Assembly (NCBI GenBank): GCA_017460835.1
Contig: JAFUAD010000028.1
Span: 1 to 42,306 of the forward strand
Length of the DNA stretch: 42,306 bases
Source: Oscillospiraceae bacterium
Lineage (GTDB): Bacteria; Bacillota; Clostridia; Oscillospirales; Ruminococcaceae
Direction of reading: 5' to 3'
Shown: one piece after another, positions 27,708 through 30,382 of the stretch
Layout: every line of letters starts with the position of its first letter
Numbering within the stretch: position 1 is the stretch's first letter
Made by a program: the position numbers and the translations under genes
The notes under the pieces: model-generated
What the model saw: only the letters and a program-made list of their open reading frames with translations
Databases searched by the model: none
What the model was told of the DNA's origin: nothing

Positions 27708-30044
27708 TTACTGCTTATATTTTTCCATATCCTGTGCGCGGATCTCCGAACGGCGGATCTTTCCGCTGCCGACGGTTTTCGGCAGGCTCTCGCGGAATTC
27801 CACGACACGCGGATATTTATACGGCGCAGTTGCCTTCTTCACATATTCCTGGATTTCCTTCACAAGATCATCGGAAGGAACGGTGCCCTGTGTCAGAACG
27901 ATCGTCGCCTTGACAAGCTGTCCGCGTACCTCATCCGGCACACCGGTGACGGCGCATTCCATGATATAGGGCAGCTCCATCAGCACGCTCTCGATCTCAA
28001 ACGGTCCGATGCGGTAGCCGGAGGATTTGATGACATCATCGACTCTGCCGACATACCAGAAATATCCGTCTTCATCCATCCAGGCGGTATCGCCGGTGTG
28101 ATAATAGCCGTCGCACCATGTTGCCTTTGTGGTTGCCTCATCGCGGAAATAGCAGAGCGCAAGGCCGGGATTGCTGCCCTCCTTGATGCGGACGCAGATT
28201 TCGCCGGTTTCGCCGACGCCCGCGGGCTTGCCGTCCGGGAGCAGAATCTGCACCTCATACTGCGGATTCACCCTGCCCATGCTGCCGGGCTTGGGCTCCA
28301 TGCCGACAAAGTTGCCGATTGTCAGCGTGGTTTCGGTCTGTCCGAAGCCTTCCATCAGCTTGATTCCGGTTGCACGGTAGAACTGATAGAAGACCTCCGG
28401 ATTCAGCGCCTCGCCTGCGATACATGCATGCTTCAGCGAGGACAGATCGTAATCCGCAAGATTCTGCTTGATGAAGAAGCGGTACATGGTAGGCGGCGCG
28501 CAGAAGGTCGTGATGTGATACTGCTTGAACATCGGCAGGATATCGTCTGCATGGAAGCGGTCGAAGTCATAGACAAATACGGCTGCTTCGCACATCCACT
28601 GTCCGTACAGCTTGCCCCAGAGCGCCTTGCCCCAGCCGGTATCGGAGATCGTGAAGTGCAGGCCGTTCGGGTCGGCATTCTGCCAGTAGCGCGCCGTTAC
28701 ATAATGCCCCAGCGGGTACTGATAGCTGTGCAGCACCATTTTCGGGTTGCCGGTCGTGCCGGAGCTGAAGAAGATCAGCATCGGGTCGGTGCCGCAGGGG
28801 GTCTCATCGGTGCGCTCGAAATGCGTGCTGTATGCCGGCAGGTCTGCATTGAAATCGTGCCAGCCCTCGCGCTTGCCGTTGACCAGAACCTTTGTCTTCA
28901 GTGACGGGGAATTCTCGCAGGCGAGATCGACCTGATTTGCCACATCGCCGTCAGCCGTTGCGATGATCGCGGAGATTTCGGCAGACCGGAACCGGTATTC
29001 AAAATCATGCTTCATCAGCATATTCGATGCCGGGATGACCAGTGCGCCGATTCTGTGCAGCGCAAGGATCGAGAACCAGAACTGATAATGCCGCTTCAGC
29101 ACGAGCATCACGCGGTCGCCCTTTTTGATGCCGAGCGAGCGGAAGTAGTTTGCGGTCTGACAGGAATAGCGTTTGATATCGCGGAATGTAAATCTCTTTT
29201 CGTTATGCTCGCGGTCAACATAGATCATCGCGGTCTTATCCGGCGATTTCTTCGCGAGCTCATCGACACAGTCAAATACGAAGTTGAAGCGATCCTCGTT
29301 GTGGAAATTCACGCCGCTGAGGACGCCCTCCTCGTTCGTTTCGCAGGTGACGAATTTCTCCATGACCGGATGCACCAGACCGGCTTTGTCCACGTTGGTG
29401 GAGTGATGCTCGGCAACATGCTCGCGGTATTCCGTCATGCCGGTCGAGCCGTGCGGCGCCATGACAAACGCATAGATTTCGCAGTCCTCACCGCCGAGCG
29501 CGATTTCATCATGCGGCAGAGAGCTGTCATAGTAGATGCAGTCGCCCTCGTGCAGAATCTCGGAATGCGACCCGATGATCATGCGCACAGAGCCCTTGAG
29601 GACGATATCCATTTCCTGTCCCGCGTGGCTTCCGAGATGCAGCGGCTTGGAGAGCGCCTCCTCGGAATACGGGATGACCACATGGAACGGCTCAACGGTC
29701 TTGTTCTTGAATTTGGAAGCGAGGCGGTTATAAACAAAGCCCTCGCGCCGGACAATCGGCACGCCCTCGCCCTTCCGCGTGACGGTATAGCTGCTGAGCT
29801 CCGGGCTGCTGCCCTCCATCAGATCCGCGATCTCGACATGAAATGCATTCGCGCATTTATAAATAAAGGTGAAGCTGAAATCCTTTTCACCGGATTCATA
29901 CTGCTGATATTCCTCAACGGAATAATCCGTGATCTCAGCCATCTGTTCCACGGTAAGTCCCAGATCCTCACGAAGACGGGCAATTCGCTCCGCGACCTCC
30001 TTGATTCTGGCTTCTGCATTCTGCAAATTCATTTGCTCGCTCAT
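27708..30044 (-). CDS. XRE-cupin-acyl-CoA synthetase fusion protein
   Basis: 778 residues in three parts. Residues about 11-78 are an XRE/Cro-type helix-turn-helix ('LTVEQMAEITDYSVEEYQQY'). Residues about 118-205 are a cupin ('PLHLGSHAGQEMDIVLKG' and 'DCIYYDSSLPHDEIAL'). Residues about 250-775 are an adenylating acyl-CoA synthetase of the medium-chain type, with SSGTTGNPK (about 421), 'MEGFGQTETT' (about 563), 'YHTGDTAW' (about 648) and the C-terminal Lys in 'VGSGKIRR' (about 758). It activates a carboxylic acid to its CoA thioester. XRE-cupin pairs normally form stand-alone regulators, so here the enzyme may sense a ligand or regulate itself. A T-box leader precedes it. The start has AAAAGGAGAG upstream. 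Confidence 0.92.
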   Translation of the reverse strand: MSEQMNLQNAEARIKEVAERIARLREDLGLTVEQMAEITDYSVEEYQQYESGEKDFSFTFIYKCANAFHVEIADLMEGSSPELSSYTVTRKGEGVPIVRREGFVYNRLASKFKNKTVEPFHVVIPYSEEALSKPLHLGSHAGQEMDIVLKGSVRMIIGSHSEILHEGDCIYYDSSLPHDEIALGGEDCEIYAFVMAPHGSTGMTEYREHVAEHHSTNVDKAGLVHPVMEKFVTCETNEEGVLSGVNFHNEDRFNFVFDCVDELAKKSPDKTAMIYVDREHNEKRFTFRDIKRYSCQTANYFRSLGIKKGDRVMLVLKRHYQFWFSILALHRIGALVIPASNMLMKHDFEYRFRSAEISAIIATADGDVANQVDLACENSPSLKTKVLVNGKREGWHDFNADLPAYSTHFERTDETPCGTDPMLIFFSSGTTGNPKMVLHSYQYPLGHYVTARYWQNADPNGLHFTISDTGWGKALWGKLYGQWMCEAAVFVYDFDRFHADDILPMFKQYHITTFCAPPTMYRFFIKQNLADYDLSSLKHACIAGEALNPEVFYQFYRATGIKLMEGFGQTETTLTIGNFVGMEPKPGSMGRVNPQYEVQILLPDGKPAGVGETGEICVRIKEGSNPGLALCYFRDEATTKATWCDGYYHTGDTAWMDEDGYFWYVGRVDDVIKSSGYRIGPFEIESVLMELPYIMECAVTGVPDEVRGQLVKATIVLTQGTVPSDDLVKEIQEYVKKATAPYKYPRVVEFRESLPKTVGSGKIRRSEIRAQDMEKYKQ

Positions 30045-30065
30045 GATAATCTCTCCTTTTTTGAT

Positions 30066-30109
30066 AAAAATAAAAAGCTCGCCTCAAAGATCAGTTCTTT
30101 GAGACGAGC
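30066..30109 (-). terminator. T-box intrinsic terminator
   Basis: On the minus strand the stem GCTCGTCTCAAAG/CTTTGAGGCGAGC (30077-30109, one mismatch) is followed by TTTTTATTTTT, just upstream of the acyl-CoA synthetase ribosome site. Confidence 0.92.
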
Positions 30110-30347
30110 ATCATTCCTGATTACCCGCGGTACCACTCAAATTGTGCCGCTATTGCGTTACACCACTCATCGAGCTCCAGCAAGCCCTTTACCTTTACGC
30201 AGCATCACGGGAATTCCTACTCAAAATACCATTTTTCGGAACTCCGGCTCAGAAGGGATGCACAAATCTGCATATGACTGACTTTCACCGACCGTCAGCT
30301 CTCTGAACACATTGGCAAACCTGTGTGTGTCTTCATCATTGCCTATG
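30070..30347 (-). promoter_or_regulatory. T-box riboswitch leader (best specifier AUC, Ile)
   Basis: On the minus strand, stem I has the kink-turn flank AATGATGAAG..., an 11-bp helix (30315-30325 with 30261-30271), AGAGAGC, and a distal loop CTGAC-GGTCGGTGAAA-GTCAG. The specifier loop (30256-30260) is closed below by GAAG/CTTC (30331-30334 with 30252-30255) and reads CAUCC, so AUC is at 30259-30257. The T-box core GAGTGGTACCGCG (30126-30138) matches the AGGGTGGNACCGCG consensus, with UGGU set to pair with an NCCA end whose discriminator is A. Cys, Ser and His readings of nearby triplets would need other discriminators. The base after AUC is C, not the usual purine, so the amino-acid call is less sure than the T-box call. 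Confidence 0.9.
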
Positions 30348-30353
30348 TGCAAG

Positions 30354-30382
30354 ATTATAGCACAGAAAAACTGATTTGTCAA
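30354..30382 (-). promoter_or_regulatory. Consensus promoter of the T-box transcript
   Basis: On the minus strand, TTGACA (30377-30382), 17-bp spacer and TATAAT (30354-30359). The -35 overlaps the nth stop codon at 30379. Confidence 0.9.

Follow-up and report, generated by a model that had tools for sequence, protein, structure and literature searches.

The conversion of branched volatile acids to isoleucine, valine, and leucine in the rumen is old physiology, reportedly described for rumen bacteria by Robinson and Allison in 1969 and by Allison and Peel in 1971. In these bacteria 2-methylbutyrate is described as the precursor of isoleucine and isobutyrate as that of valine (PMC7356843), and a search of the open-access literature found no paper naming the genes or enzymes that activate branched acids there, or their control. 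Two synthetases with such substrates have been characterized in other organisms. MacsMa, the 2-methylbutyryl-CoA synthetase of Methanosarcina acetivorans (PDB entry 3ETC), prefers 2-methylbutyrate, makes adenylates of many acids other than 2-methylbutyrate but not their CoA esters, takes propionate as a less favourable substrate, and has as pocket determinants a critical Trp259 and a glycine where Acs has Trp416 (PMC10455477). MbcS activates 2-methylbutyrate and isobutyrate, and isovalerate poorly, and its role in Staphylococcus aureus is to feed FabH (PMC10026030). Here we describe an acyl-CoA synthetase (ACS) gene preceded by a T-box leader in contig JAFUAD010000028.1 of an Oscillospiraceae bacterium, the whole analysed stretch of 42,306 nucleotides being called the window; with this RNA switch a relative of Ruminococcus appears to sense isoleucine shortage, activating 2-methylbutyrate, a waste acid, to rebuild isoleucine.

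The gene and its leader lie on the minus strand, in an interval (27708..30382) that runs from a -35 box to the stop codon and in which an earlier reading, made from the sequence alone, had placed a complete T-box ahead of an acyl-CoA synthetase. That claim is borne out: the Rfam covariance model RF00230 matches 30348..30097 over its full length at 99.7 bits, above the gathering score of 93, and this Ile-type leader (30097..30348) extends from stem I to the antiterminator. The UGGU of the T-box bulge, which would pair with the end of a tRNA having discriminator A73, lies at 30132..30135 in the Rfam alignment, and the intrinsic terminator, a 14-bp hairpin (-23 kcal/mol, z -5.9) with a U-run, occupies 30066..30109. 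A promoter-like pair read by eye at 30354..30382 consists of a -35 element TTGACA (30382-30377), a spacer of 17 nucleotides, and a -10 element TATAAT (30359-30354), and the gene itself, encoding 778 amino acids, extends over 27708..30044. Covariation in 16 aligned leaders, in which 32 of 59 consensus pairs show two-sided compensatory changes with pairing kept, establishes that the pairing of the leader is conserved beyond chance.

The specifier bulge of the window leader is the five-nucleotide CAUCC, in which nucleotides 2-4 counted from the 3′ end read AUC (30257..30259, minus strand). TBDB gives priority to exactly this frame, and the usual specifiers are AUC for isoleucine, CUC for leucine, and UUC for phenylalanine (PMC7778990). 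Across the 16 aligned leaders AUC is invariant, preceded by C or U and followed by C or A, and in their consensus fold the bulge stands open above an invariant GAAG:CUUC stem. The sequence-only reading had taken the bulge as AUC, and the covariance model did not place the specifier elsewhere. The identical frame of codon, one base, and stem was seen by eye in two other settings of the same genome, with UGG before trpE and a TrpB-like gene and GUC before valS. Two other frames were tried and rejected: the -1 frame gives CAU or UAU (His or Tyr) depending on the orthologue, and the +1 frame varies between UCC and UCA (Ser), leaving AUC as the only constant triplet. A serine T-box would be expected to carry UGGC.

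UGGC is expected for discriminator G73 and UGGU for A73, the latter being the presumed discriminator of tRNA-Ile, and the leaders of this genome are split in agreement with this expectation, with UGGC in trpE, the TrpB-like gene, and a partial aspS, and UGGU in valS, ilvA, and the window gene; the trpE, TrpB-like, valS, ilvA, and aspS genes all exceed their NCBIfam cut-offs. A pattern search of the incomplete assembly did not find tRNA-Ile(GAU), and one tRNA with anticodon CAU was seen by eye. The ilvA gene is itself preceded by two tandem T-box aptamers (G000:C96:12385-12819; L005 and L006), read by eye as CUC (Leu) followed by AUC (Ile), which seemingly have one common antiterminator/terminator.

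The gene product is a synthetase, as the sequence-only reading had it, and also more than that, an N-terminal part of ∼215 residues having been overlooked. Pfam places an XRE helix-turn-helix (HTH) at residues 17-78 (HTH_3, 37.3 bits, cut-off 23) and a cupin at residues 134-192 (Cupin_2, 35.7 bits, cut-off 27.2) in this N-terminal part, followed by AMP-binding (262-619) and AMP-binding_C (683-757), both over their cut-offs. The closest PDB entry is 3ETC, with 659 bits over residues 209-773, the next structure reaching 364 bits, and together with the Pfam and NCBIfam matches this marks the protein as a predicted 2-methylbutyryl-CoA synthetase. Trp476 (codon 28617..28619, minus strand) corresponds to the acyl-pocket Trp259 of MacsMa in the 3ETC alignment, with the offset counted by hand, and Gly568 was assigned by eye to the place of Acs Trp416; both are unchanged in all 189 tabulated sequences. 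In the same genome, a separate XRE-cupin gene and an unfused ACS paralogue, 50% identical, are found at G000:C85:434-2671 (L136).

The leader was found again before homologues, where the sequence-only reading had suggested looking for it. A first search of 61 genomes (E ≤ 1e-60) gave a match in 47, and a T-box was present in 28 of the 29 first orthologue loci (23 over the Rfam cut-off and five by motif), the remaining locus, L028, beginning inside the gene. One genome (G058) has two fusion genes, with AUC before one and GUA before the other. In a class sample of 393 genomes the fused proteins fall into two groups, ∼60% and ∼56% identical to the window protein, the latter mostly with a valine codon and with L093 and L094 as exceptions carrying AUC. 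A first set of 98 chosen loci, which omits the incomplete loci L028, L030, and L031 and the paralogue or edge loci L042, L046, L051, L056, L057, and L124, yielded 103 ACS rows, of which 59 had AUC, 19 had GUA, and 25 had no T-box. A scan of named genomes, covering the best 80 of 588 relatives and including loci titled Ruminococcus flavefaciens, Neglectibacter timonensis, and many rumen and gut metagenome assemblies, gave 87 non-identical ACS (seven exact duplicates were removed from 94, and two L160 pieces shorter than 480 residues were dropped): AUC in 55, GUA in 14, a cut T-box in one, none in 14, and no room for one in three. The 190 pooled rows thus comprise 114 with AUC, 33 with GUA, one cut, 39 without a T-box, and three without room; no other codon was called, and TGGT was present in all 148 T-boxes before ACS genes (78 + 70). 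A later sample of 40 further loci, reduced from 39 to 35 ACS by removal of four duplicates, had a readable T-box before 23 (22 AUC and one GUC) and no room before one.

These assignments rest in part on reading by eye. Automatic calling of specifiers erred or failed at the valS, trpE, TrpB-like, and partial aspS leaders of the window genome, among others, and specifiers were assigned by eye, ahead of the comparison of residues, at L036, L086, L090, and L096 of the first set and at L148, L208, L214, L165, L184, L219, L201, L190, and L218 of the scan, with L169 left as cut; those of the Phe and Leu leaders L099, L167, and L194 were also set by eye, and for L237 and L254 the reading by eye came after their residue 472 was known. 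Rfam was used to check for the lack of a T-box at L158, L171, L173, L181, L182, L239, L241, L242, L249, L251, L253, and 17 further loci, and all remaining loci were judged by motif. At three loci lacking a T-box (L149, L151, and L171), bases resembling GUAAGC, close to the probable start of transcription, could pair with GCUUGC before the start codon; the L149 version of this short leader, read by eye, is GTAAGC/GCTTAC.

The codon in the leader is matched by a residue in the enzyme. Residue 472 is glycine in 114 of 114 Ile-type and alanine in 33 of 33 Val-type enzymes and is the sole position in the synthetase part at which the two types do not overlap. In the later sample all 22 AUC enzymes have glycine and the one GUC (Val) enzyme has alanine, so that 23 of 23 agree, with a single Val case among them. 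The window enzyme carries Gly472 (codon 28629..28631, minus strand), and 3ETC has glycine at the equivalent position. The next-best discriminating positions are 475, 574, and 575, and all four are near both known acyl-pocket determinants in sequence. The probable pocket-side placement of residue 472 rests on its position four residues before the Trp259 equivalent, and Ala472 would narrow the pocket to suit a smaller acid. On a tree made by a quick method and containing long branches, the T-box labels cluster, with three changes for Val against a shuffled mean of 17.6 and nine for Ile against 33.5. Well-supported branches force two of the three Val changes; Val arises by several changes, and the Gly/Ala split is therefore not one clade difference.

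The genes around these switches suggest a link with amino acid synthesis. At three loci (L096, L191, and L195) the order is an Ile T-box with an ACS; a Val T-box with an ACS, an ATPase-like gene, VorB, VorA, VorC, and a branched-chain aminotransferase (BCAT); and a Leu T-box with a LeuA-like gene. Among the 31 Val-type ACS with enough sequence, VorB and VorA lie within 6 kb downstream in 15, and BCAT as well in 12 of these, and in one genome (G050) the Ile-type ACS itself heads an operon with an ATPase-like gene, VorB, VorA, and BCAT. The VorB and BCAT of L058 and L065 exceed the NCBIfam cut-offs for 2-ketoisovalerate:ferredoxin oxidoreductase (VOR) and branched-chain aminotransferase; the LeuA-like gene examined passes the Pfam cut-off and not that of NCBIfam, and the ATPase-like genes examined reach no cut-off. 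LeuA-like genes were found behind 11 T-boxes, all with the specifier CUC (read by eye in two), and a TIM-barrel/acyl-CoA ligase follows the LeuA-like gene in eight of these 11 loci, the remaining three ending there. That leucine would have a ligase to itself agrees with the poor activity of MbcS on isovalerate, with Ile and Val, and not Leu, using the MbcS-like family. The five T-boxes found before a PaaK-like ligase (L062, L099, L102, L162, and L186) all read UUC, one by eye, and suggest a like logic from phenylacetate to phenylalanine; the one PaaK-like gene scored reached 532 bits on PaaK, with a cut-off of 646. Together, these loci support the view that the window system is a single branch of a wider regulon, through which branched volatile acids are turned into branched-chain amino acids.

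Two further observations concern these neighbourhoods. The TIM barrel fused to the acyl-CoA ligase is xylose-isomerase-like (L058:5891-8356 and relatives; G000:C39:342-2471), and the fusion was matched in 25 of 30 genomes of the genus and adjoins an unfused ACS paralogue in at least five. On one contig comprising L138 and L175, a Val-type ACS lies in fragments between an XRE-cupin part and an ATPase-VorBAC operon.

From the leader, its specifier and terminator, the gene and its domains, their conservation, and the arrangement of operons among relatives, all established here, we infer a tRNA response, a substrate for the enzyme, a direction for the oxidoreductase, and a role for the XRE-cupin part. 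When charged tRNA-Ile is scarce, pairing of uncharged tRNA-Ile with the leader, at AUC and UGGU, would let the antiterminator form, and the XRE-cupin-ACS gene would be transcribed. The synthetase half would then turn environmental 2-methylbutyrate into 2-methylbutyryl-CoA, VorBAC, encoded elsewhere in the genome, would reductively carboxylate this to 3-methyl-2-oxopentanoate, and a branched-chain aminotransferase would convert the latter to isoleucine. The genes needed are present and not clustered: VorB lies at C70 with 547 bits, over its cut-off, together with VorA and VorC, and BCAT at C41.

IlvC, an enzyme of the ordinary ilv route, is missing from many carriers. Counting only matches above 240 bits, the KARI_N Pfam cut-off of 20.6 being passed by all 30 genomes of the genus list, a strong IlvC match is present in eight of the 30, the window genome included; in the remaining 22 all matches are short and score 20-34 bits. 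All 11 genus genomes that are at least 90% complete and have no strong IlvC match carry an Ile-type ACS. In the class sample (E ≤ 1e-40), IlvC is absent from 44 of 54 genomes with a T-box-led fused ACS versus 125 of 339 others, among which G296 and G372, with an unfused T-box-led pair, were counted, a contrast with a Fisher p of 7e-10 that takes no account of relatedness; 15 of 20 families with a T-box-led fused ACS are entirely without IlvC. Given this frequent absence, the branched-acid route may be the main source in many carriers.

The best explanation, to which we give a probability of roughly 0.86, is that an Ile T-box induces a predicted 2-methylbutyrate-activating synthetase for isoleucine synthesis. 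This is the role proposed in the sequence-only reading, and it gains support from the Val-T-box sisters with VOR, the Leu T-boxes, residue 472, the loss of IlvC, and the kinship with 3ETC. Besides the relatedness ignored in the IlvC contrast, several observations weigh against it. The neighbour of the window gene is an endonuclease III gene, neither VOR nor BCAT, and no VorB-VorA pair occurs within 6 kb in 16 of the 31 Val-type loci or in 55 of the 70 Ile-type loci with enough sequence; in 14 of the 15 Ile-type loci that have the pair, a second ACS lies between (broken in L138). The window genome has both IlvC and IlvA, the latter behind its own T-box, so the branched-acid route would be a supplement here. 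Its unfused ACS paralogue (C85) has Ala472 and no T-box. The top NCBIfam model for the window protein, MbcS (NF047394), scores 449.5 bits, under its cut-off of 850, and the synthetase is accordingly counted as MbcS-like and not filed as MbcS. T-boxes are also lacking from the 39 of 190 pooled rows noted above, 25 of them mostly unfused relatives and a paralogue group and 14 mostly Ruminococcus-titled, and from 11 of the 35 ACS of the later sample. Mostly Ruminococcus-titled loci (such as L151 and L171) keep the fusion without a T-box, as do the three f38 genomes and three of the four f70 genomes fetched, and IlvC is present in nine of ten f38 carriers.

Of the competing explanations, the one that survives best, though it is unlikely, is that the synthetase primes the synthesis of branched-chain fatty acids, like the MbcS of Staphylococcus aureus, and that the Ile T-box merely reports short branched precursors. 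The top NCBIfam model is indeed that of an enzyme shown to feed FabH (PMC10026030), and 2-methylbutyryl-CoA is a source of anteiso fatty acids. About half of the Val-type sisters, however, head operons with VOR, mostly with BCAT as well, which serve amino acids and not FabH; distinct Ile, Val, and Leu switches match the demand for amino acids; and 44 of the 54 carriers have no IlvC. It is still less probable that the enzyme activates propionate, with propionyl-CoA carboxylated to 2-oxobutyrate and then passed through the ordinary ilv route, a known alternative start of isoleucine synthesis. The presence of IlvC in this genome would suit such a route, which leaves unexplained the Val-type sisters, the VOR/BCAT operons, and the many carriers without IlvC. 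MacsMa does form propionate adenylate, but its adenylates of many acids other than 2-methylbutyrate are not carried to the CoA ester (PMC10455477). A catabolic or detoxifying product that disposes of branched acids under a relic T-box is very improbable, even though some groups have no T-box and perhaps run the gene otherwise, since a catabolic gene should not be induced when charged tRNA-Ile is low, and since the T-box codon, UGGU, and structure are kept across many genomes.

Induction of a 2-methylbutyrate-activating synthetase for isoleucine synthesis can also be set within a wider picture, which we put forward tentatively and regard as rather doubtful as a whole. In many anaerobic Clostridia a T-box regulon that makes branched-chain amino acids from branched volatile acids may have taken the place of the ilv route or come to supplement it, with separate Ile, Val, and Leu switches, and a Phe switch for the PaaK-like gene, each of which would turn on a dedicated acid-CoA ligase. 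The ligases under the Ile and Val switches, differing at one pocket residue (Gly/Ala472), would then be trigger enzymes, DNA-binding XRE-cupin fusions sensing their own acyl-adenylate or acyl-CoA as BirA does. The T-box specifier indicates which substrate a synthetase should have, which allows each gene to be matched from sequence with its acid and its amino acid, and a one-residue rule is offered for the choice between isobutyrate and 2-methylbutyrate. Such matches are relevant to rumen fibre digestion, where isoacids are fed, and to cross-feeding in the gut.

The T-box and the chemistry are of known kinds; neither the pairing of a T-box with the activation of branched acids, nor the fusion of regulator and synthetase, nor the Gly/Ala rule appears in the literature found, in which no paper describing the synthetase together with a T-box turned up in an open-access search. 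The window leader resembles the RF00230 T-boxes of amino acid and aminoacyl-tRNA synthetase genes in stem I, specifier bulge, UGGN, and antiterminator/terminator, and differs in controlling an acyl-CoA synthetase; the main text of the T-box survey by Wels (2008; PMC2494555) contains no occurrence of "coa", "acyl", or "ferredoxin". MacsMa shares the pocket Trp259, the glycine at the place of Acs Trp416, and the Gly472 equivalent, whereas it is archaeal and its PDB chain aligns from the synthetase part onward, with no XRE-cupin. MbcS is alike in being the top NCBIfam model and in the acids that it activates, and unlike in feeding fatty-acid synthesis, its 525-position model spanning the synthetase part only. 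The Geobacter iorAB-paaK genes, which we take to encode a ligase and a ferredoxin oxidoreductase for arylacetic acid, likewise tie such a pair to an amino acid, in an aromatic system unlike that of the window. A table that marks leuA alone as T-box lists them with a conserved sequence upstream, which it assigns to tryptophan (PMC2700814). The regulator-synthetase fusion has its nearest likeness in repressors of the BirA type. These also join a DNA-binding HTH to an adenylate-forming ligase, from which the window protein differs in that its HTH is of the XRE type, accompanied by a cupin, with a putative role in DNA binding.

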